A stretch of DNA of 64,000 bases from Roseivivax isoporae LMG 25204. GTDB taxonomy: Bacteria > Pseudomonadota > Alphaproteobacteria > Rhodobacterales > Rhodobacteraceae. The notes under the pieces are model-generated. The model had not been told where the DNA came from and ran no database searches. It was given only the letters and a program-made list of their open reading frames with translations. Shown here in pieces: positions 13,968 to 25,736 of the stretch. Numbering within the stretch: position 1 is the first letter of the stretch; every line of letters begins with the position of its first letter. The translations under genes were made by a program, and so were the position numbers. The DNA lies in contig NZ_JAME01000001.1 in NCBI RefSeq assembly GCF_000521865.1, forward strand, positions 62,001 through 126,000, in the 5' to 3' direction.

Positions 13968-15401
13968 TCACGCCGCCTCGAGTTTCGCGGTGGCGCCGCC
14001 CTTGCCCATGAACGTGTCATGGAGGGTCTTGATGCAGGTCTCGAGGTCGTCGCGATGGATCACGAACTGCGCGTCGACCGTGCGGGTCGTCTGGTGGGCC
14101 GAGATCACGTCGATCCCCGCCTCGCGCAGCGCGCCGAGACCGCGTTCGAGCACGTGCAGGCCCCGCAGGTCGCGGCCGATCACCGAGGCGATCGCGGCCG
14201 AGCGCACGTTGATCTCGGATTGCGGGTAGTGCTTGGCGAGCTCTTCCTCGACCTTGCGCATGGCCGACAGCGGCGCGTCCACGTAGTGCGTGATCGTGTT
14301 CGCGTTCGACGTCTTGGACACGATGCGCAGGTCATGCTTGGTCAGGATCTCGAGCGTGCGGGCGTCGTAGCCCTTAACGCCGACCATGTCCTGCTCGAAG
14401 AGCTCGAGCGCGAAGACATGCAGGCCGCAGACGATCTCGGCCACGCCCTTCTCGGCCTCGGCCTCGTCGATCACGGTGCCCGGATCCTCGGGCTCGAACG
14501 CGTTCGTCACGCGCAGCGGCACCTCGGCCTGGCGCAGCGCCTTGGCGGCGGTCGGGTGGATCGCCTCCATGCCCATGTTCGACAGCTGGTCGGCCACGTC
14601 GTAGTTGGTGTGGCCGATCTTGCGCACGTTGTCCGCGCCCACGAGCTTCGGATCCGCAGAGGAGAGATGGAACTCCTTGTGGATGATCGCCTCGCGCGCC
14701 TTGGTCAGCGCCGCGATCTGGCTGAACGTGACCTCGGAATAGCCGCGGTCGAACTTGTTCATCAGCCCCTCGACGCATTGCGCGTAGCCGGTGACGATCG
14801 GCATCTCGCTCTCGAGGTCGATGTCGGACAGCCCGTCGCGGATGCGCTCCTCGAGGTTCATCTCGCGCTCGTCGCGCCAGCCCGAGAGATCGACGAACCG
14901 CGCGTCGACGCCGTTCCGGCGCAGGAGCAGCGTGGTCACGTAGGCCGAGTGCGCCTCGCCCAGCCCCGACAGGAGCTCGCGGGTCACCTGCATGTGCGCC
15001 GACAGGCGGAAGTGCCCGTAGGAACACAGCCGGTGCAGGTCGATCAGGCAGTTGCGCGCGCCCTCGATGCGGTCACGCACGAAGTCGTCGGCGTCCTGCT
15101 TGTCGCCCTTGTGCGAGAGCAGCTTCTCGTGCGCCTCGCGCATGGCACGGTCGACGCGCGTCAGCGCCGACATCCAGCCGTGCTCGGCCGTCTCGTTGGC
15201 GAACTCGGCGTAGACGCCGGGTTCGCCGCTCTTCTTGTGCTCGAGCAGCAGGTTCGTGATGCCGCCGAACGCCGAGACCACGAACATGCGGCCGTAGTCC
15301 GGTTGCGACACCCTGAACAGGGGCTCGAGCAGCTCGTCGAGACGCGACATCGTCGTGCCGCCGATCTTCTCGACGCTGTGGTTCCTGAAATCGAAGGTCA
15401 T
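13968..15401 (-). CDS. ask: Ectoine-associated aspartate kinase (Ask_Ect)
   Basis: A 477-residue aspartokinase. The kinase start is NHSVEKIGGTTMSRLDELL, the KIGGT variant seen in ectoine-linked aspartokinases rather than the KFGG of housekeeping LysC. Later parts include the substrate region VTGYAQCVEGLMNKFDRGYS and C-terminal ACT-type repeats (VGVKGYDARTLEILTKHDLR and INVRSAAIASVIGRDLRG). It phosphorylates L-aspartate, the first step towards L-aspartate-semialdehyde and so 2,4-diaminobutyrate. It is the last gene of the operon, 18 bp after ectC and just upstream of a strong terminator. This dedicated isozyme is generally thought to escape feedback inhibition by lysine and threonine. Confidence 0.95.
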   Translation of the reverse strand: MTFDFRNHSVEKIGGTTMSRLDELLEPLFRVSQPDYGRMFVVSAFGGITNLLLEHKKSGEPGVYAEFANETAEHGWMSALTRVDRAMREAHEKLLSHKGDKQDADDFVRDRIEGARNCLIDLHRLCSYGHFRLSAHMQVTRELLSGLGEAHSAYVTTLLLRRNGVDARFVDLSGWRDEREMNLEERIRDGLSDIDLESEMPIVTGYAQCVEGLMNKFDRGYSEVTFSQIAALTKAREAIIHKEFHLSSADPKLVGADNVRKIGHTNYDVADQLSNMGMEAIHPTAAKALRQAEVPLRVTNAFEPEDPGTVIDEAEAEKGVAEIVCGLHVFALELFEQDMVGVKGYDARTLEILTKHDLRIVSKTSNANTITHYVDAPLSAMRKVEEELAKHYPQSEINVRSAAIASVIGRDLRGLHVLERGLGALREAGIDVISAHQTTRTVDAQFVIHRDDLETCIKTLHDTFMGKGGATAKLEAA

Positions 15402-15419
15402 GCAGTCCCCGTCCGTCGC

Positions 15420-15812
15420 TTAGGCCGCCTCGTCGGGCGACGCGTAGGAGCCGTCCTCGCGGTGCACTTCCTTGCCCGTCACGGGCGGGTTGAAGCAGCA
15501 GGCGAGCACCAGCTCCTCCTCGCAGCGCACCGTGTGCTTGTCGTGCTTGTCGAGCGCGTACATGACGCCCGGGGTGATCTGGTGCGTCTCGCCGGTGGCG
15601 AGATCCTCGATCGTGCCCTTGCCCGAGATGCAGTAGACGCTCTCGAAATGGTTCTTGTAGTGGAACGTGTGCTCCGACCCGGCCTGGATGTAGGTGATGT
15701 GGAAGGAGAACCCCATCGCATCGTCGGCCAGGAGCATCCGCACCGAAGTCCACTTCTTGTCGGACACCGAACGGTCGGTGTCCTTCAGCTTGTTCACGTC
15801 ACGAACGATCAT
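15420..15812 (-). CDS. ectC: L-ectoine synthase
   Basis: A 130-residue cupin enzyme, the normal EctC length. It starts [16 protein letters not shown] and contains the cupin histidine-rich strands [20 protein letters not shown] and the [19 protein letters not shown] motif. It cyclises N-gamma-acetyl-2,4-diaminobutyrate to ectoine, a compatible solute. It lies 6 bp after ectB and 18 bp before ask in the same operon. No ectoine hydroxylase (ectD) gene is present in the window. Confidence 0.97.
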
Positions 15813-15818
15813 GTCTGG

Positions 15819-17105
15819 TTACTCCGCTGCGATTTTGTGGTTCTGGGTCGCTTCCTGCGTCGCCTCGCGCAGGATCTCGAGGCCGTTGCGCAGCGTCTCG
15901 GGGGACACGGTCAGGGCGACCAGCACCTTGACCACCTCGTCGTCGGCGCCGGAGGTCTCGATGATCAGGCCCTTCTCGAAGGCGCGTGCGCAGATGTCGC
16001 CGGCAAGCTCGCCCGAGCCCACGTCGACGCCCTGCATCATGCCGCGGCCCTTGAGCCTGGCGCCCGGGACGATCTCGGCGACCGACTGCAGGCCGGTCGT
16101 CAGCATGACCGACTTCTCCTGCACCTTCTTCTGGAAGGTGTCGTCGCTCCAGAACTTCTCGAGCGCGACGCGCGCGGTGACGAAAGCGTGGGTGTTGCCG
16201 CGGAAGGTGCCGTTGTGCTCGGCCGGCTTCCAGATGTCGTGCTCGCGCTTGATCAGCAGCGCCGCGAACGGAAGGCCGAAGCCCGACAGCGATTTCGCCT
16301 GCGTGATCAGGTCGGGCTCGATGCCCGTGCCCTCGAACGAGAAGTAGGTGCCGGTGCGGCCGCAGCCCGACTGGATGTCGTCCACGATCAGGAGCGCGCC
16401 GTGTTCCTTGGCGAGCCGTGCGATGCCCTGCATCCACTCGGTCGACGCGGCGTTGAGGCCGCCTTCGCCCTGGACGGGCTCGAAGATGAAGGCCGCGGGC
16501 TTGTCGATGCCCGACGACGTGTTGTTCAGCATCATCTCGATCTGCTGGAGCGTGTCGACACCGTCGCCGAACGCGCCGTCATAGGGCAGGTGCGTCACGC
16601 CGCAGAGGCCGCCGCAGCTGTTGCCCGCGCCCGCCCGCTTGCCGGCATTGCCGGTCAGCGACAGCGCGCCCATGGTCATGCCATGGAAGCCGTTGGTGAA
16701 GGAGATGATGTTGCGGCGCCCGGTGATCTTGCGCGCGAGCTTCATCGCCGCCTCGACCGCGTTGGTACCGGTCGGGCCGGTCATCATGACCTTGTAGTCC
16801 ATGCCGCGCGGCTCAAGGATCTTCTTCTCGAACGCCTCGAGGAACTGCGCCTTCTCGGCGGTGTACATGTCGAGACCGTGCGCGATGCCGTCACCGGCCA
16901 CGTGGTCCAGCAGCGCCTGCTTCATGTCCGGGTCGTTGTGCCCGTAGTTCAGCGACGAGCAGCCCGCGAGGAAGTCGATATAGGTCTTGCCCTCGGTGTC
17001 GGTCATCTCGGACCCGACGGCCTTGGTGAACACCGTATCGAAATTGCGGCAATAGCTGCGCGCCTCGGATTCGCGGCGCGCGAAAATCTGTTTGTCTGTC
17101 GACAT
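15819..17105 (-). CDS. ectB: Diaminobutyrate-2-oxoglutarate transaminase
   Basis: A 428-residue class-III PLP aminotransferase. Recognisable parts are the EctB N-terminus (ARRESEARSYCRNFDTVF), FLAGCSSLNYGHNDP, the PLP-phosphate region MMTGPTGTNAVEAAMKLARK, and IVDDIQSGCGRTGTYFSF followed by the PLP lysine in ITQAKSLSGFG. It transfers an amino group to aspartate-semialdehyde, giving 2,4-diaminobutyrate. The gene lies 56 bp after ectA and 6 bp before ectC. Length is normal. Confidence 0.97.
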   Translation of the reverse strand: MSTDKQIFARRESEARSYCRNFDTVFTKAVGSEMTDTEGKTYIDFLAGCSSLNYGHNDPDMKQALLDHVAGDGIAHGLDMYTAEKAQFLEAFEKKILEPRGMDYKVMMTGPTGTNAVEAAMKLARKITGRRNIISFTNGFHGMTMGALSLTGNAGKRAGAGNSCGGLCGVTHLPYDGAFGDGVDTLQQIEMMLNNTSSGIDKPAAFIFEPVQGEGGLNAASTEWMQGIARLAKEHGALLIVDDIQSGCGRTGTYFSFEGTGIEPDLITQAKSLSGFGLPFAALLIKREHDIWKPAEHNGTFRGNTHAFVTARVALEKFWSDDTFQKKVQEKSVMLTTGLQSVAEIVPGARLKGRGMMQGVDVGSGELAGDICARAFEKGLIIETSGADDEVVKVLVALTVSPETLRNGLEILREATQEATQNHKIAAE

Positions 17106-17161
17106 TCCTAGTCCTCCGGACTGAATAATGGGATGTGAACGCGTGAGCGGGAGCGCGGGTT

Positions 17162-17692
17162 TCAGGCCGCGCTCTGCACCGCATCGCGGAAGGTGATGGT
17201 CACCATGTGCTCGGTCGCGTGCTCACCCGCGAAGTGCGTGTCGCGGGTGAAGTGGGCGTCCGAGGTGAGCAGGCCGTTCGACCGCTCGGCGAACTTGCGG
17301 AACAGCGCCCAGGACGCATCGTTGTCGAGCGTGATGGTCGTCTGCATGCGCTTGACCTCTGCACACTCCTCGCGCGCCATCAGCGCGCTCAGCATGCGCG
17401 TGCCAAGCCCCATGCCGCGGGCCGCGCTCGACACGGCGACCTGCCACACGAAGACGGTGTCGGGATCATGCGGCGTCACGTACGCCGAGATCCAGCCGAC
17501 GATCTCGCCATCCTTCTCCGCCACGACGCAGGTGTCGCGGAAATGGTCGGACTGCAGAAGATTGCAGTACATCGAGTTCTCGTCGAGCGGCTTGCAGTCG
17601 CGGATCAGTTCCCAGATCGCGGAGCCGTCCTCGCGCACGGGTTTGCGGAACGTCACCGTTCCTTCGGCCTTCATGCTTTGAAGTGTCTGCAT
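17162..17692 (-). CDS. ectA: L-2,4-diaminobutyric acid acetyltransferase
   Basis: A 176-residue GNAT acetyltransferase. It has the EctA opening (RKPVREDGSAIWELIRDCKP and LDENSMYCNLLQ), the acetyl-CoA strand VFVWQVAVSSAARGMGLGTR with the R/Q-x-x-G-x-G/A loop, and TTITLDNDASWALFRKFA. It acetylates the gamma-amino group of 2,4-diaminobutyrate. It is the first gene of ectABC-ask and is read from the promoter at 17733-17761. An AAGG about 10 nt before the ATG can serve as ribosome site. The divergent MarR gene is the likely regulator. Confidence 0.95.
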   Translation of the reverse strand: MQTLQSMKAEGTVTFRKPVREDGSAIWELIRDCKPLDENSMYCNLLQSDHFRDTCVVAEKDGEIVGWISAYVTPHDPDTVFVWQVAVSSAARGMGLGTRMLSALMAREECAEVKRMQTTITLDNDASWALFRKFAERSNGLLTSDAHFTRDTHFAGEHATEHMVTITFRDAVQSAA

Positions 17693-17841: not shown

Positions 17842-18046
17842 CTTGTGGACAAGCCCGTGCTGATGGCAAAGGAATGCCGTGTATGGCGAACGGATGATGC
17901 GTCCGGGCCATTGCGCAGCTTGTATCGGTAGATTATTCGACTAACTAAATAACATGTTTGATTATACGACGACTCAGAGTGCCGCCGCCTCCTGTGCCCT
18001 TGCATCCGGCGGGGCGTCGCACCGGTCAGAGACGATTGAGCCGCCC

Positions 18047-18601
18047 ATGGACAGAGACAGAACGGATGAAAGCCTGATTGCGTTGCGCAGGATTCTGCGC
18101 GCGACGGATCTTTACGGCCGCGACCTCGCGCGGGATGCGGGGCTGACGGCGGTGCAACTGCGCGTCCTGCAGATCGTCGCGGAACGCGGCCGGTGCCATC
18201 CGACCGACGTCGCGGCGCAGATGGGCGTGACCCAGGCGACGATCTCGGTCCTGATCAAGAAGCTCGAATCCTGGGGCCTGATCCAGCGCGAGCAGTCGGC
18301 GACCGATCGCCGCCAGATCGACCTCACCATCACGCCAGCAGGCCTCGAAAAGGTCGAGGTGGCGCCCGACGCGCTGCAGCAGCGTTACGTGCGCCATTTC
18401 GAGGCGCTTCCCGACTGGGAACAGGCGATGGTCGTGGCCGTGCTGGAACGGGTGGCGGGCATGCTCGGCGCCGGCAATTTCGACGCCGCGCCGGTTCTCG
18501 CCGCGGGCGACATCACGCGGCAGGCGCGGGGCACGAACGGCGAGACCGGGCACGGCGCGCCGCGCAACGGGATCGTTCCCGGGCGGAACCGGGCGCAGTA
18601 G
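18047..18601 (+). CDS. MarR family regulator, probably EctR-like
   Basis: A 184-residue protein from ATG 18047. It shows a MarR winged helix: LRRILRATDLYGRDLARDAG (dimer helix), TAVQLRVLQIVAERGRCHPT, recognition region VAAQMGVTQATISVLIKKLE, and a wing with REQSATDRRQIDLTITPAG. The wing DRR(Q) motif is typical. It is transcribed divergently from ectABC-ask, the arrangement known for EctR regulators, which repress ectoine genes at low salinity. An upstream ATG (17954) would add 31 residues with little character and no RBS. The last ~40 residues are low-complexity Gly/Arg-rich sequence. Control of ectA is inference from position. Confidence 0.82.
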   Translation: MDRDRTDESLIALRRILRATDLYGRDLARDAGLTAVQLRVLQIVAERGRCHPTDVAAQMGVTQATISVLIKKLESWGLIQREQSATDRRQIDLTITPAGLEKVEVAPDALQQRYVRHFEALPDWEQAMVVAVLERVAGMLGAGNFDAAPVLAAGDITRQARGTNGETGHGAPRNGIVPGRNRAQ

Positions 18602-18618: not shown

Positions 18619-21600
18619 TCAGTAGTCGCGCTCGTAGTAGATGCCGACGCCGGTATTTCCGCCGCTGCCCACCGTGCCGCGCGCGGTGACGCTGGGCGTG
18701 ATGGTCAGGTTGAGGTTGATCTCGGTCTCGCCCTCGCTGTTCACCGTCACGTCGGTATAGGCGCGTTCGTTGATGTAGCGCCCGAGCCGCAGCTCGGTCT
18801 GGCCGTCCGCCCCGGTCTGCACGTCGAGATCGTCGAGACCCGTCGACATCCGCAGGCGATCCACCAGCGAGGTGCCGCTGCGACCGGCAAGCGTGTTGAT
18901 CGCCGAAGCGATGCGCAGCGCCTGCAGCCCCGAGATCTCGGACAGGTCGCGGCCGAACAGCAGCAGCGCCAGCACCTCCTCCTCGGGCCGGTCGGGGCTC
19001 GAGGTGAAGTCGACCTCGGGTTCCGACACCGGCCCCTCGATGATGATGGCGATCGTGTTCTCGTCGCGCTGGGTGTCCGCGCGCACGTAGATGAACGGGT
19101 TCAGGTCGCCCTCGAGCTGGATGTAGGCCTCGGACAGGGTCAGCCGCTGGCCCAGGATGTCGAGCCGGCCCCGGATCAGGTCGAACCGGCCGACCGGCTG
19201 GATGTTCTGCAACGTGCCGCCGATCACCACCTCGCCGCCCAGTTCCGCGTCGAGCCCGCGGCCCCGCACGAAGATCTGCGAGGGGGCCGTGACCGTGACG
19301 TCGAGGCCGTAGTTCACGCCCCCGCCGCCGCCACCGGCGCCGCCGTCGTCGGACGGGTCGCGGAAACCTGCGCGCGCGCGCGTCTCCTGGACGTCCGCGG
19401 GCGGGTTGACGTGGCGGACGTCGAAGCTCAACGAGGTGTTGCCCGTGCCGCCCGAGGGCACGCGCACCTCGGTCCGGCCGAGCGCGATGTTGCCCGACAG
19501 CGTCGCCGTCGAGGCGAGCGGTCCCGTCAGCCGCAGCGACCCGTTCGCGGTGCTCTCGATGAAGCCCGCATCGACATATTGCAGGCCGTCGAGGGTGATC
19601 GCGAGGTCGCCGTTGAACGGCGGTGACAGCGTTACCGGCCCCGAGACCGAGAGCTGCCCGCCGGACGACAGTCCGCCTGTCAGGTCGATGTCGGCACGTC
19701 CGCCCGACAGGCCCACCTGCGCGTCGATGCCGTTCACGGTCAGGCCCTGCGAGGGGAGGGCGAATTCGGACCCGGTCGTGGTCACGGTGCCCGACACCGC
19801 GTCGAGACCCGGCGCACCGTTCACCCGGAGGTCGAAGCGTGCCTGCCCCTGAAGGATGTTGGGCTCGATGAATCCGTTGGCGAGCCCGAGCGGCGCGGCG
19901 CCCGTCACCGACAGGTTCACCCGGCCGAAATCCTGCGCCGCGGTGCCAGAAACGTTGGCGTTCGTGCCGCCGGGGCCCGTCAGGCCCGCATCGATCCGGT
20001 AGCCGCCGCCGGCCAGCTGCGCGGTGCCCTCCGCGGTCAGCGGGCCCGACAGGTCAGGCACGAACAGACCCACGTCGCGCAGGCGCAGGTCGTACCGGAC
20101 GTCGCCCGAGTTGCCGCCATAGGTGCCGTTCACGGTGGCGTCGATCTCGGTGCCATCGACCACCAGGCGATCGATGCGGATGGCGCCGCCCGGATCGCCC
20201 GCCGCCGTCGCGCCGAAGGTGGTCGTCCCGCGCAGGAGCTGGTCGATCGCGGAGATGCCGGTGCGCAGGTCCGCGACGCGGCCGTCCACGTCGGCGCTGA
20301 ACTCCTGGCTCTCGAGCGCGTAGGAGCCCGATCCTTCGACCGATACCGACCCGCCGAGCCGCCGGCCCGCCACCGAACCATAGGGCGCGAGGGTCGTCAC
20401 CGACACCGTGCCCGATCCCTCGACCGCCTCGAGCGCGTTCTCGACCACGCGAAGCGCCGCGTCGACCTGCGCCTCGGCCCCGCCGGGGCCCGAGGCGGTG
20501 GCGTCCACGTTCCAGACGTCGCCGTCCTGCTGCGCGGTCGCGTCGACCTGCGCGCCGCCCGACAGCCCGTCCAGCACGTCGCCGAGATCGGTCATGCGCG
20601 CCTCGAGCCGCACGTTCGAGCCCGTGTCGCGGTAGGTGCCTTCCGCGGTGGCGCGCGCGCGCGGCGCCTCGATCCGGAGGTTGCGCAGCACGATTCCGTC
20701 GTCGTCGCGCGCGGCGTCGATGTCGTAGGTCGCGGTTCCGGCGAGCAGGGCGTCGGCCTGCGGGATGCCGGTCGTCACGTCCTGCGACCGGCCGGAGACA
20801 TCGGCGCTGAAGAATTGCGTCGCCAGCTCGTAGCTGCCCGACCCCTCGAACCGGGCCGAGCCCGAAAGCGGGCGGCCGACGAGCTCGGCATAGGGGCGGA
20901 GGGTCTCGATTCCGAGCGCGCCCGCCGCCTCGATCGCGCGGAGGGCGAGCCCGTCGAGCGTCGCCGCGCCCGCGATGTCCGCGGCGGCGCCGCCCGGGCC
21001 CGAGCCGGTGATGTCGAAATCGACGGTGTCGCCGGTCTGGTCGGCGGTGCCGCTGAGGCGCGCCTCGCCGGTCATGCCCTGGACGACCGAGGCGAGGTCG
21101 GTCACCACCGCGTCGAAGTTGGCGCGGCTGCCGGTCTCGGCATAGACGCCGTCGCCGGTGACGCTGACGCGGGGCGCGGCGATGCGCAGCTCGTCCACGG
21201 TGATCCCGTCCGCGTCGCGGCGCGCCTCGACGTCGTAGGTCGCCTCTCCCTCGAGCAGCGCGTCGAGCTCGGCGATGCCGGTCGCGACATCGGTGCTTGT
21301 GCCGCTCACATCCGCCGAGAAGAAGCCCGTCGCGCGTTCGAAACTGCCCGAGCCGTCAAAGGTCAGCGCGCCGCCGAGCGGCCGGTCCACGAGGCCCGCA
21401 TAGGCCGACAGGTCGTCCGCGGCGATGCTGCCCGTGGCGTCCACGCCGCGGAAATCGGTGCCGACGAGACGCGCGGTGCCGTCGAGATCGGCGCGCGCGC
21501 CGCCCGGGCCGCTGCCGGTGACGTCGAAGCTCCAGGCCTCGCCGTCCTGGCTGGCGGTTCCGCTCAGGCGCGCGTCGCCCGACATGGTCGGCACGACGGC

Positions 21601-23931
21601 GGCAAGTTCCGACAACGCCACGTCGAATTCCGCCGTGCTGCCGTCGTCGCGCAGGCGCCCCTCGGCGGTGATGTCGGCGCGCGGCGTCGTGAGTTCGAGC
21701 GTGCGGAGGGTGATGCCCTCCTCGTTGCGCCCGCCGTCGAGCACGAACCGCGACTGCCCGGCAAGAAGCGCGTCGAGCTCGGCAATGCCGGTCGCGATGT
21801 CGGTGCCGGTGCCGGACACGTCGGCGGTGGCCGCGCTGCTCTGCAGGTCGTAGCGCCCGGTGCCCTCGACGCGGACCGCGCCGCCGAGCTCGCGCCCGGC
21901 GATGCCCGAGAACGTGTCGAGCGTGTCGACTGCCACGGTGCCGGTGCCGCCGACCGCGGTCAGCAGGTTGTCGACCAGCGTGGCCGTCACGTCCGCGTCG
22001 ATGCGCGCGCCGCCCGGGCCCGCGCCGGTCAGGTCGAGCGTGTAGTCCTCGCCGTCCTGCACCACGGTGCCCGCGACCGCGAGCCGGCCCTCGAGGTCGG
22101 GGCGCACGCGCGTCATGTCGGCGATGTCGATGTCGAAGCGCGCGTCGGTCTCGTTGCCGCCGACGCGGCCCTCTGCGGTCGCGGTCAGTGTCTCCGAGGC
22201 GAGGTTGAGCGTGCGCAGGACGATCCCCGCCTCGTTGCGCGCCGCGTCGATGGCGAGGTCGAGCTGGCCCGCCACGAGGCCGTCGACCTCGGGGATGCCG
22301 GTCTCGATGTCGGTGGCAGAGCCATCGACGGCCATGTCGAACGCGCCCGAGACAGGTTCGAACGTGCCCTCGGCCTGCACGTCGACCGCTCCGCTCAGGT
22401 CGCGCCCGGCGAGACCGGAAAAGCGCGAGATGTCGTCCGCGACCACCGAGAGGTCCGGCGCGATGACGATGTTGAGGTCGTTGGCGATGCCGCTCACCGA
22501 CACGGTGCCGGTGGTGGTGATGCCGGCGCCGGTCAGGTCGATCCCAGTGAGCTCGAGCGCCGAGCCCTGCGTCCAGTCGAAGCTCACGAGGCCCGACAGC
22601 GTGTCCCCCACCGCCTGGGCCAGGTCCGGATCGGCGAATTCGAGCCCCTCGGCCGACAGGTCGAACTGCCCCGCGGCCGCGCCGAGCCCCGAACCCTCGC
22701 CCTGGGTCAGGGTGCCGTCGCCGTCGAGCCGGAAGGACGCGGCGTCGAGGTCGGGACGGTCGAGCCCCTCGACCGCGATGCCGGCCTGCCAGGTGTCGCC
22801 CTCGGCGGCGTTGAAGTCGATGTCGATCGCCGCGCGGTCGACGCGGGTATCCTGCCCGGGCAGGGGCAGGGCGACCGGCCCGCCATCCTCGGCCTGCATC
22901 CGGCCGGTCAGCGAGACGAGCACGGGCCAGTTCTGCGCGTTGAGCTCGACCGTTCCGTCGAGCGTGATCGCGTCCGAATCGAGCGACAGCGTCTCGAGCA
23001 CGAGGCCGCCCTCGGCATAGCTCTGGCCCGAGACGTCGAGCGACAGGCTCGGGCCGAAGAATTCGCGGTTCTCGGGCGTGAGCAGCGGGCGCACGTCGCC
23101 CTCGACGTCCACGTCGAACTGCGTGCCCGCGCGGTCGGCATCCGCGATGTCCGCCACGGCGATGCGGCCCGCCAGCCGGTCCTCGCCGTCGGTGGCGAAG
23201 GCGAGGTCGGCCGCGAAGTCGGACAGCGGCCCGCTGCCCTCGACCGTCAGCTCGAGCGCGGGTTCGCCGGGAATGCCCGCGAGCGAGGCCACGATGCCGC
23301 CCGGCCCCTCGTTCACGTCGAGATCGACGGACAGCTCGCGCGAGTCGTTGGCATAGGCCGCATCGAGCGTGATCTCGCCCTGCCGGTCGTCGGTGCGCTC
23401 CACGTCGAGCGCCACCTCCCCCTCGCCGCCGGCGAGGCTCGCCGAGCCTTCGAGCCGGAACTCGACCGGCTGGCCGATCACCGGCGCGCCGATCTCGACC
23501 CTTTCGGCCGCGATCCGGCCCACCTGGACCGAGACCGGCAGCTCTGGCAGCGAGAACGGCTGCGTGGCGGCATCGGGCACCTCCACCGTCGCGTCGGCCG
23601 GCTGCGAGGGCAGGCGCGCGAGGATGATCTCGTCGGCGGTCAGCTCGTTCACCGACAGCCTGCCCCGCAAGAGCGCGAGGCGGTTCCAGTCGAGCACCGC
23701 CCCCCGCAGCGTCAGCCAGACACCTTCCTCGTCGGCGATGGTCAGCTCCTCGAGCTGCGCCTCGGAACTGAGCGCGCCCTGGAAGCCGGTGATGTCGATC
23801 TGCATCCCCTCGGCCGACAGGTTGTCTTCGATCAGCGCCTCGAGCCGGCCGCGTTCGTCGGACTGGCCGTTCACGGCCGCGGGCGCGACGAAGGCGAGGC
23901 CGAGGGCGGTGGTGGAGAGGATGCGTCTCAA
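18619..23931 (-). CDS. tamB: Translocation and assembly module subunit TamB, with internal 170-residue repeats
   Basis: A 1770-residue AsmA-like inner-membrane-anchored protein, longer than many TamB proteins. Residues 1-22 are a signal/anchor (LSTTALGLAFVAPAAVNG). The long beta-rich middle contains five tandem units starting at residues 502, 672, 842, 1012 and 1182, each with motifs such as TDIATGIAELDALLAG and SGPGGA. The DUF490/TamB C-terminal domain follows from about 1350 (ANGFIEPNILQGQARFDLRV, later FDLIRGRLDILGQRLTLSEA and EVLALLLFGRDLSEISGLQA), ending YYERDY. With TamA it is thought to bridge the periplasm and move outer-membrane proteins or phospholipids. Its ATG overlaps the tamA stop by 4 bp. 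It converges with the MarR gene, leaving 17 bp. Confidence 0.93.
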   Translation of the reverse strand: MRRILSTTALGLAFVAPAAVNGQSDERGRLEALIEDNLSAEGMQIDITGFQGALSSEAQLEELTIADEEGVWLTLRGAVLDWNRLALLRGRLSVNELTADEIILARLPSQPADATVEVPDAATQPFSLPELPVSVQVGRIAAERVEIGAPVIGQPVEFRLEGSASLAGGEGEVALDVERTDDRQGEITLDAAYANDSRELSVDLDVNEGPGGIVASLAGIPGEPALELTVEGSGPLSDFAADLAFATDGEDRLAGRIAVADIADADRAGTQFDVDVEGDVRPLLTPENREFFGPSLSLDVSGQSYAEGGLVLETLSLDSDAITLDGTVELNAQNWPVLVSLTGRMQAEDGGPVALPLPGQDTRVDRAAIDIDFNAAEGDTWQAGIAVEGLDRPDLDAASFRLDGDGTLTQGEGSGLGAAAGQFDLSAEGLEFADPDLAQAVGDTLSGLVSFDWTQGSALELTGIDLTGAGITTTGTVSVSGIANDLNIVIAPDLSVVADDISRFSGLAGRDLSGAVDVQAEGTFEPVSGAFDMAVDGSATDIETGIPEVDGLVAGQLDLAIDAARNEAGIVLRTLNLASETLTATAEGRVGGNETDARFDIDIADMTRVRPDLEGRLAVAGTVVQDGEDYTLDLTGAGPGGARIDADVTATLVDNLLTAVGGTGTVAVDTLDTFSGIAGRELGGAVRVEGTGRYDLQSSAATADVSGTGTDIATGIAELDALLAGQSRFVLDGGRNEEGITLRTLELTTPRADITAEGRLRDDGSTAEFDVALSELAAVVPTMSGDARLSGTASQDGEAWSFDVTGSGPGGARADLDGTARLVGTDFRGVDATGSIAADDLSAYAGLVDRPLGGALTFDGSGSFERATGFFSADVSGTSTDVATGIAELDALLEGEATYDVEARRDADGITVDELRIAAPRVSVTGDGVYAETGSRANFDAVVTDLASVVQGMTGEARLSGTADQTGDTVDFDITGSGPGGAAADIAGAATLDGLALRAIEAAGALGIETLRPYAELVGRPLSGSARFEGSGSYELATQFFSADVSGRSQDVTTGIPQADALLAGTATYDIDAARDDDGIVLRNLRIEAPRARATAEGTYRDTGSNVRLEARMTDLGDVLDGLSGGAQVDATAQQDGDVWNVDATASGPGGAEAQVDAALRVVENALEAVEGSGTVSVTTLAPYGSVAGRRLGGSVSVEGSGSYALESQEFSADVDGRVADLRTGISAIDQLLRGTTTFGATAAGDPGGAIRIDRLVVDGTEIDATVNGTYGGNSGDVRYDLRLRDVGLFVPDLSGPLTAEGTAQLAGGGYRIDAGLTGPGGTNANVSGTAAQDFGRVNLSVTGAAPLGLANGFIEPNILQGQARFDLRVNGAPGLDAVSGTVTTTGSEFALPSQGLTVNGIDAQVGLSGGRADIDLTGGLSSGGQLSVSGPVTLSPPFNGDLAITLDGLQYVDAGFIESTANGSLRLTGPLASTATLSGNIALGRTEVRVPSGGTGNTSLSFDVRHVNPPADVQETRARAGFRDPSDDGGAGGGGGGVNYGLDVTVTAPSQIFVRGRGLDAELGGEVVIGGTLQNIQPVGRFDLIRGRLDILGQRLTLSEAYIQLEGDLNPFIYVRADTQRDENTIAIIIEGPVSEPEVDFTSSPDRPEEEVLALLLFGRDLSEISGLQALRIASAINTLAGRSGTSLVDRLRMSTGLDDLDVQTGADGQTELRLGRYINERAYTDVTVNSEGETEINLNLTITPSVTARGTVGSGGNTGVGIYYERDY
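19879..22428 (-). repeat. Five tandem 510-bp (170-codon) coding repeats inside tamB
   Basis: Equivalent codons start at 22428, 21918, 21408, 20898 and 20388, four steps of exactly 510 bp. A second anchor, the Thr of the TGI motif, falls at 22302, 21792, 21282, 20772 and 20262, again 510 bp apart. The GPGG anchor falls at 22020, 21510, 21000, 20490 and 19977, so only the last unit has one extra codon. Protein identity between units is only partial, so the repeats are old, yet they carry almost no length changes. Confidence 0.9.
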
Positions 23932-25736
23932 AATGCCTGTCCGATGCCGATGTAGAACTGCACGCCTTCGCCGGTATCGCCCGAGGTGGGCGCGGCCACG
24001 TCGAACCGGATCGGGCCGATGCCGGTCTGGTAGCGGACGCCGAGGCCCGCGCCCGAGTGCCAGCCGCCCGAGCCGTCGTAGAAGCTTTCCTCGCCGATGT
24101 AGCCCGCGTCGTAGAACGCGACGAGCCCGAGGCTCTCGGTCAGGTCGCGGCGGTACTCGGCGGACATGCCGACGAAGCTGCGCCCGCCGGTCTCGTCCCC
24201 GTCACCGAGGTCGACGTTCAGCGACTGGTAGGGCTGGCCGCGCACGGTGCCGCCGCCGCCCGAGTAGAACAGGAACTCGGGCGCCGTCTCCTCGAGGTCG
24301 GAGCCCACGACGGAACCGAGCTGCAGCCGGCCGGCCAGCACGTTCGGGTCGCCGTCGCCCCAGCCGAGATAGCCGCGCAGGTCGCCGTAGAGCCGCGCGC
24401 CCGACTGGGTGTCGTTGAGCCCCAGATAGGGCGTGGCCTCGGCGTTCACGTAATAGCCCTGCCGCGGGTTCAGCTCGTTCGAGCGCTTGTCGATCGTCAA
24501 GCCCGCGGGAAAGGTCAGCAGGAAGAACTCGCGTTCGCCGAGGTCGTCCTCGACGTCGCTGTAGATCAGTCCGAGCCCCAGCTCGACCTCGGTGTCGTCG
24601 CCGAGGCGCCGCGTGGCGCCGATCTCGGCCTCGAAGCGGTTCGACAGGTAGGTCGGTTCGTCCTCGCGCACGATCGCGGACAGCACGTAGCCGTCGGTAT
24701 CGGCGCCGTAGATCGCGGGAATGTCGAGCCGGCCGCGCAGCGCGTAGTCCATCCCGCTCTCGCTGCTGCCGATGTTCCGGACCGAGGCGTCGAAGCGCAG
24801 CCGCTCGGCCCCGCCGAAGAAATTGCGGTGCATCCAGAACGCGGTGAGCCCGATGCCCTCGAGCGTCGAGTATTCCGCGCCGAAACCGATGCGCCGGGGT
24901 TTCTGGTCGGACACCGCCAGCGACATGTCCATCGTCCCGTCGGGCCGCACCACCTCGCCTTCCTGCAGCGTCACGGACGAGAACGCGCCGGTGCGCCGCA
25001 GCCGTTCGACCACGCGCTCGACCTCCTCGGGGTCGAAGCTCTCGCCCTGCGGGAAACCCGCGATGCGGCGGATCGCGCCCTCGCGGACCGCGCTGGGCGT
25101 GGTGACGAGCATGTTGCCGAAGCGGACGCTCGGGCCGGTCTCGATGCCGATCACCGCGGACAGGGTGTTGGTGCGGTGCTCGGCCACCACGTCTTCCGAG
25201 GCGAGGCCGGCCTTGGCGTAGCCGCGCGCGCGCCAGTCCTCGATGGCGATGTCGACGGCGTCGCGGATCACGGTGCTCTGCGCGACCTTGCCGACCGCGA
25301 AGCCCTCGGGCAGCTCGGTCTTGCGCGGGATGGGCGCCACCTCGGCGCGGGAAAATCGGAACTGCGGACCCGTCTCCACCTGAACCTGGATCACCCCGAC
25401 CCGGTCGGGCAGGTCGAGGAGCGGGATCTGCGAGGCCTCGCGCCCGTCCACGAGGATGTTGATCACGCCGCCGTAATAGCCGCGGGAATAGAGCGCCTCG
25501 AGCAGGTGTGCGTAATCCGCAAGCGCCGTCGCCACGAGATCCTGCGGGTCGGTCCGCCCGTCGTTCTCGGCCGCAGAGATCAGCGACACGCTGCGCAGCA
25601 GGTCGCGGATCTCTTCCCGCTGCTCCTCGCTCGGGGCGCGCACCGAGTAGGACACGTCGTCGAGGGCGAGGGCTGCCGGTGTTGATGTGCAGATCGCAAG
25701 CGCCGCGAGGCGGACTTTTCTGGAAAGGTCGAACAC
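23928..25736 (-). CDS. tamA: Autotransporter/translocation assembly protein TamA (Omp85 family)
   Basis: A 602-residue outer-membrane protein. A signal peptide ends near ALALDDVSYSV (about residue 25). POTRA-type segments occupy roughly 25-250 (VIQVQVETGPQFRFSRAEVA and PSVRFGNMLVTTPSAVREGA), then a 16-strand Omp85 barrel with the conserved RGQPYQSLN segment (the VRGQPY form of the L6 RGF-type motif) and a final phenylalanine (FYIGIGQAF), the BAM recognition end. It works with TamB in the same operon (4-bp overlap). The start is a GTG at 25734-25736; residues following it form the basic signal-peptide head MFDLSRKVRL. Confidence 0.93.
   Translation of the reverse strand: MFDLSRKVRLAALAICTSTPAALALDDVSYSVRAPSEEQREEIRDLLRSVSLISAAENDGRTDPQDLVATALADYAHLLEALYSRGYYGGVINILVDGREASQIPLLDLPDRVGVIQVQVETGPQFRFSRAEVAPIPRKTELPEGFAVGKVAQSTVIRDAVDIAIEDWRARGYAKAGLASEDVVAEHRTNTLSAVIGIETGPSVRFGNMLVTTPSAVREGAIRRIAGFPQGESFDPEEVERVVERLRRTGAFSSVTLQEGEVVRPDGTMDMSLAVSDQKPRRIGFGAEYSTLEGIGLTAFWMHRNFFGGAERLRFDASVRNIGSSESGMDYALRGRLDIPAIYGADTDGYVLSAIVREDEPTYLSNRFEAEIGATRRLGDDTEVELGLGLIYSDVEDDLGEREFFLLTFPAGLTIDKRSNELNPRQGYYVNAEATPYLGLNDTQSGARLYGDLRGYLGWGDGDPNVLAGRLQLGSVVGSDLEETAPEFLFYSGGGGTVRGQPYQSLNVDLGDGDETGGRSFVGMSAEYRRDLTESLGLVAFYDAGYIGEESFYDGSGGWHSGAGLGVRYQTGIGPIRFDVAAPTSGDTGEGVQFYIGIGQAF

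Follow-up and report, generated by a model that had tools for sequence, protein, structure and literature searches.

The tamB gene of Roseivivax isoporae LMG 25204 encodes a protein with five tandem units of nearly identical length, and the question is how such a series grows and whether its length is set by the width of the periplasm. TamB is described as a hydrophobic groove that serves as a lipid conduit (PMC12800296; PMC11014939; PMC5719984); 24 strands have been assigned to it (PMC12800296), and a TamB model measures 17.8 nm, or 24.6 nm when stretched (PMC11014939). A first-pass annotation of the stretch of DNA analysed here (64,000 nucleotides, hereafter the window) had seen in the strict unit length a sign of selection, either on a length that spans the periplasm or on the register of the groove.

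The gene lies in an operon with tamA, which encodes the Omp85 partner (Table 1), and a TamA match was found within the fetched locus for 121 of the 124 TamB loci. The protein terminates in ...YYERDY, with the C-terminal aromatic residue that has been described as a TamB feature (PMC4494059), and it shares with the known TAM complex proteins (TamB/AsmA-like) the C-terminal TamB (DUF490) domain and the adjoining tamA gene; its predicted strands may form the long hydrophobic groove (beta-taco) described for such proteins (PMC5719984). With the NCBIfam TamB equivalog model, the protein scored 68.9 bits (below the cut-off of 825); the YhdP domain profile gave 19.4 bits, under its curated cut-off of 46, and the AsmA profile (PF05170) had no match in the R. 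isoporae genome. Adjoining tamAB are a gene for a MarR regulator (17954-18598) and genes for an amino-acid kinase, a class III aminotransferase and a GNAT protein (13971-17692), the latter group being presumably an ectABC-ask osmolyte cluster. Elsewhere in the family, 28 of 199 genomes had no PF04357 match (including the single-contig genomes G011 and G053), and TamB is either lost or very diverged there.

Internal repetition was scored by an offset scan of the 1770-residue protein. The best ungapped local self-score was 1384, at offset 170, with further scores of 795 at offset 340 and 439 at offset 510; a score of 120 at offset 171 corresponds to the last unit, longer by one codon. Shuffled versions of the protein (n = 20) reached at most 56. 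The five units were of 170, 170, 170, 170 and 171 residues and spanned residues 495-1345 (about 19897-22449, minus strand). An HMM of the five units scored 219.8-253.1 bits on the protein; since it was trained on these same units, it sets the boundaries and is not an independent test. Pairwise identities between units (ten pairs, 170 columns) were 30.0-50.6%, the sole indel was the one residue in unit 5, and the TGI and GPGG motifs were present in all five. The first-pass description of diverged tandem units of about 170 residues, with near-invariant length, two recurrent motifs and a one-codon exception at the end, is therefore borne out, as is its expectation that a self-comparison would find the units significantly alike; the unit starts that it gave (22428, 21918 and so on) are the codons for residues 502, 672 and so on, which is one valid phase of the array. 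The 510-bp spacing was visible in the DNA too. Judged from their sequence, the window's copies arose long ago (72% nucleotide identity in the best 50-codon stretch), and Tandem Repeats Finder, whose longest period is 500, reported nothing at tamB.

Table 1. Positions in the window of tamB, tamA, the five units, their A and B cores and an A-like stretch
Feature	Positions	Strand	Details
tamB	18619..23931	minus	1770 aa; TTG start overlaps tamA stop; ORF and Pfam TamB, E 7.5e-50 at aa 1419-1770
tamA (Omp85 barrel, POTRA)	23928..25736	minus	602 aa; upstream partner; Pfam Omp85 8.7e-37, POTRA 1.1e-5
C-terminal TamB/DUF490 domain (PF04357)	18622..19677	minus	aa 1419-1770, inside near-constant tail
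Unit 1 (A+B)	21940..22449	minus	aa 495-664; HMM 232 bits
Unit 2 (A+B)	21430..21939	minus	aa 665-834; HMM 243 bits
Unit 3 (A+B)	20920..21429	minus	aa 835-1004; HMM 239 bits; ten strands predicted
Unit 4 (A+B)	20410..20919	minus	aa 1005-1174; HMM 253 bits; ten strands predicted
Unit 5 (A+B), last	19897..20409	minus	aa 1175-1345; 171 aa; HMM 220 bits
Unit 1 A core	22153..22434	minus	A HMM 106.0 bits
Unit 1 B core	21973..22140	minus	B HMM 57.6 bits
Unit 2 A core	21643..21921	minus	A HMM 95.6 bits
Unit 2 B core	21463..21630	minus	B HMM 70.6 bits
Unit 3 A core	21133..21414	minus	A HMM 99.4 bits
Unit 3 B core	20950..21120	minus	B HMM 57.2 bits
Unit 4 A core	20623..20901	minus	A HMM 105.8 bits
Unit 4 B core	20446..20610	minus	B HMM 61.9 bits
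Unit 5 A core	20110..20391	minus	A HMM 87.6 bits
Unit 5 B core	19927..20097	minus	B HMM 79.8 bits
Weak A-like stretch upstream of array	22933..23181	minus	aa 251-333; 21.0 bits

For comparison, 125 loci were assembled: the window, 24 named loci (pattern matches to the window TamB) and 100 loci from the window's GTDB genus or family. TamB frames were analysed from 124 of them (the window, 100 same-family and 23 named); the remaining locus (L022, Paracoccus cavernae) had no TamB frame bearing the C-terminal match, perhaps owing to an assembly frameshift. Two frames (L120 and L125) touch an edge, and all 124 differ within the last 900 residues. The sample is non-random, being made up mostly of best-scoring profile matches, with some loci chosen for large frames. 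At an offset score of at least 80 (shuffle maximum 58), 109 of the 124 TamBs were internally repetitive, with best periods of 59-63 (16 proteins), 99-111 (17), 116-125 (3), 165-173 (66), 196-204 (3) and 338-405 (4). None of these 109 had its best period at 30-58, 64-98 or 128-164; isolated offsets scoring at least 80 occurred at 68 and 93, and at 35, 36 and 41 in L090. The TamB of R. halotolerans (L007) has, within the region of its last A module, an additional partial copy of 68 residues (residues ~905-989, score 234, 56% identity).

A further check was made with 20 of the first 21 unsampled family rows sorted by TamB E-value (G050 omitted). Sixteen of these 20 TamBs were repetitive (score of at least 80), in three no offset reached 60, and the remaining one had a score of 60. 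Unusual best periods were 127 (L251), 290 (L237), 296 (L241) and 137 (L246), the last of which falls within the 128-164 gap of the main sample.

The periods of about 61 and about 109 residues seen in relatives map onto two parts of the 170-residue unit, termed B and A, respectively. Median spacings between successive modules were 98 for A-B (277 pairs), 72 for B-A (153), 109 for A-A (70) and 61 for B-B (90), i.e. additive (98+72 = 109+61 = 170); outliers exist, some of them from a missed module. Module strings ranged from (AB)1 to (AB)7, with runs of up to six A and up to 12 B, the window TamB being (AB)5, and in all 124 strings the first module was A and the last was B. When the A and B models were run on control proteins, shuffled sequences gave no matches that passed the parse and reversed sequences gave three (all A). 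Beyond the last full unit, the tail had a median length of 436 residues (5th-75th percentile 432-441, family sample); the 95th percentile of 809 indicates that the two do not adjoin in every protein. As read from the protein sequences, A and B were evidently copied in tandem, alone or as AB, at one central place, in a growth zone bounded by the first A and the last B and followed by a near-constant tail of about 436 residues. The variable unit counts that the first-pass annotation had expected among relatives are thus present; its fixed 170-residue module stands as a tandem, near-constant unit in the window, and is not primitive, as relatives copy the 109- and 61-residue parts separately. The A-like stretch upstream of the array in the window TamB scored 21.0 bits against 17.6 for the best reversed-control match, which is suggestive only, and is possibly an older, diverged module. 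Upstream A-like stretches were rejected as modules, their scores being too weak.

For structure prediction, an alignment (A2, 37 rows) was made of the last three of the five window units and those of 36 relatives, with one last triple per protein and L007 excluded. A first alignment (A1) of 70 overlapping unit triples was dropped: it had grown to 1408 columns, apparently because overlapping windows from one protein self-aligned. The AlphaFold2 model of the three units (mean pLDDT 93.4, pTM 0.77) predicts an amphipathic strand meander for the window TamB, each 170-residue unit having ten strands, two helices and one three-residue helical turn. The first strand of the three units starts at model residue 14, 184 and 354, respectively; strands 2-4 recur at exactly +170 and strands 5-10 at +169 to +172, so that the 170-residue boundaries fall at equivalent positions in the three folded units, as the first-pass annotation had anticipated. 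In each of the 30 strands one side was the more hydrophobic, with a mean contrast of 2.85, against a mean of 1.13 and a maximum of 1.56 in 1000 within-strand shuffles. By raw residue parity, four of the ten strands present the same face in all three units, and the other six depart from this in the third unit alone, starting with strand 5, which fits the one extra residue of that unit.

The TamB of L139 (three A in a row, two B) was modelled with a mean pLDDT of 85.2 and a pTM of 0.56, residues 211-255, within the middle A copy, being mostly below pLDDT 50, and showed six strands per 109 residues and four per 61. Together, the two models predict that periods of 61, 109 and 170 residues hold four, six and ten strands: A (~109 residues) would comprise six strands and two short helices, and B (~61 residues) four strands and a short turn. 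The even-strand rule, drawn from these two predicted models and the periods 61, 109 and 170, should be read accordingly as a prediction. In Foldseek searches of the PDB with the three-unit model, the best match was weak (apolipoprotein B-100, 9bde, E 3e-4, TM 0.22), and another apolipoprotein B-100 entry, 9coo, matched with Z 12.2 and an rmsd of 13.6 over 333 residues; with so low a TM-score and so high an rmsd, this is a fold resemblance without evidence of relation. The best 50 matches listed by the Foldseek/VIA searches included ApoB, LptD and porins and no TamB, VPS13 or ATG2, and are silent on membership. A PDB sequence search found nothing useful.

We consider it fairly probable that the array is a growth zone of the periplasmic TamB groove, where A, B or AB are copied centrally, in steps of even strand number, and where length is tolerated. 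Copies would arise through unequal recombination or slippage within tamB. On the AlphaFold2 prediction, the addition of A, B or AB would extend the beta-sheet by an even count of strands, and the chain could then run on in the same direction, with its loops on the same side and its hydrophobic face uninterrupted; duplications of other lengths, with odd strand numbers, would mostly be lost because the sheet would break. The extra groove would be more of the same conduit for lipid or hydrophobic cargo. A TamB that tolerates such large changes of length would not be a taut ruler of the periplasm.

The history of the units was followed in a tree built with 47 units, drawn from 12 proteins (supports are given as two values). 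The first units of nine Roseivivax and of L068 grouped together (94/73, or 98/95 with units 1-3 of L067 added), and the last units, including unit 5 of the window, formed an open group of 12 rows (89/58, or 98/96 with unit 1 of L008 added); the remaining units fall outside these two groups. Among the five long Roseivivax species, grouping followed position: first (100/99), second (100/95), third (84/99, open), fourth (99/98) and last (97/98). Concerted evolution is not supported by this grouping. Unit number was three in four Roseivivax species (R. lentus among them), five in four (including the window and R. jejudonensis) and six in R. marinus, units 3 and 4 of which both fall in the third-unit group. 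The freshest copies seen were in L143, where adjacent 109-residue copies were up to 92% identical in DNA; this locus is a candidate for strain-level variation in unit number.

Outside the family, 40 alphaproteobacterial TamBs and E. coli K-12 TamB were scanned, and two of the 41 were repetitive (scores 115 and 83). Among 20 other outside-family loci, 13 of which were picked for long frames, 18 were usable (the frames of L271 and L275 were not TamB) and 11 scored at least 80. Eight were strong cases, seven from the alphaproteobacterial family f156 and one from f158, with periods of 107 (L258, L260), 102 (L263), 622 (L256, L257, L259, L261) and 520 (L266). As L258, L260 and L263 had only one or two A matches each, it was another stretch that was copied there, in a similar quantum. 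Scores of 84, 96 and 236 were obtained for L272, L273 and L274, at periods of 258, 252 and 171, respectively. The four f156 proteins with the longest period carry a 622/626-residue internal duplication in TamB.

Whether added units bring any benefit is a separate matter. Duplications of four, six or ten strands may simply be harmless, as the sheet keeps its register, and unit number would then drift as a neutral ratchet; we give this close to an even chance. In favour of such drift are the large variation in unit counts and module strings, beside partners of near-constant length, and the further cases outside the family, but in the five long Roseivivax species each unit has its orthologues at the corresponding position and has persisted for a long time, so gain and loss cannot be very fast there. 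Rather unlikely, in our judgement, is that more units were selected in some lineages for cargo capacity or flexibility, through additional binding sites or a groove that bends more easily, a reading with which the ten predicted amphipathic strands added by each unit (i.e. more groove) and the occurrence of expansions in more than one family are consistent.

Selection of unit number so that the groove spans the local distance between the inner and outer membranes seems quite improbable. In its favour, TamB is believed to extend from the inner membrane as far as TamA (PMC11014939), and for eukaryotic bridges it is suggested that the number of domains may be matched to the width of the contact (PMC7613979). 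In 121 loci, TamB length, measured from the tamA stop, ranged from 1061 to 2096 residues (median 1371) and the TamA match span from 549 to 609 (CV 2.3%); TamA span and TamB frame length showed a weak positive rank correlation that would favour length matching (0.32, p 0.0004). Against it stand this range of TamB lengths, the occurrence of three, five and six units inside Roseivivax, and the lengths of YhdP-like proteins, which may span the periplasm. Of 50 genomes, 46 had a match to the YhdP profile (22 above the cut-off); after four genomes with only 650-750-residue YhdP-like frames (G141, G152, G192, G285) were left out, the YhdP-like protein, measured stop to stop, was 1087-1329 residues long and its length had a Spearman correlation of 0.06 with that of TamB (n = 42 genomes); for the nine genomes of Roseivivax alone the value was -0.54 (p 0.14). 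Partner lengths, taken as a stand-in for width, thus argue against periplasm width as the driver. Of the two kinds of selection raised by the first-pass annotation, register agrees with the discrete periods; periplasm-spanning length is not supported, given the spread of units and the constancy of the partners.

An explanation of the period as an artefact of alignment or of biased composition, in a beta protein of low complexity that is rich in Gly, Ala and Asp, is almost certainly wrong: the window TamB looks compositionally biased and a relative, L090, reaches short-offset scores of up to 99, but same-composition shuffles gave 56-58 against 1384, which refutes it for the window, and both the controls of the A and B models and a predicted structure that repeats at the same period speak against it.

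The growth-zone reading has a counterpart in the RBG proteins (VPS13, ATG2, Hobbit, Tweek, SHIP164), in which central internal duplication lengthens the groove and the end domains stay (PMC7613979). The TamB series grows in the same way, as seen in the tail, the unit tree and the module strings. The RBG unit is described as five strands plus a loop, with variants of three, seven or other numbers (PMC7613979), whereas six (A), four (B) and ten (AB) strands are predicted here, and the window TamB, with a predicted ten per unit (6+4), would lack a repeated five-strands-plus-loop unit; the likeness described here is one of mode of growth. A wider generalisation, offered tentatively and somewhat short of an even chance, is that TamB is no periplasm ruler, that its groove has grown in quanta of four, six and ten strands at a fixed zone, separately in several lineages of Alphaproteobacteria, and that the eukaryotic five strands with a crossing loop obey the same even-crossing rule.

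Heinz et al. 2015 (PMC4494059) describe TamB length as relatively consistent, with few very long exceptions; by contrast, a modular series of 1061-2096 residues is found here within one family. No paper on variable TamB repeat number or a modular series was found in the open-access literature searched, and the modular length series appears new, growth by internal duplication being already known for VPS13. For VPS13, it is described as an open question whether lipid carriers of the bridge type are dimensioned to fit the gap that they cross (PMC7613979). With a natural length series and a near-constant TamA in one family, and even in one genus, pairs of species could put this question to the test. 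The discrete periods also amount to a simple rule, which can be checked, for the ways in which a beta-groove can lengthen and those in which it cannot.

The N-terminus of TamB in this family looks like a cleavable signal peptide, whereas E. coli TamB has a signal anchor. By a crude rule, used without a control set, 116 of 121 TamBs had N-termini resembling signal peptides with a possible cleavage site; a stricter pattern for a cleavable signal peptide was matched by 89 of 121, with A-x-A before Q in many. In the window the N-terminal region concerned lies at 23860-23931. Signal anchors are often mistaken for cleaved peptides, as PMC4494059 warns. If the signal peptide is cleaved in these same-family TamBs, the N-terminus would not anchor the protein in the membrane.
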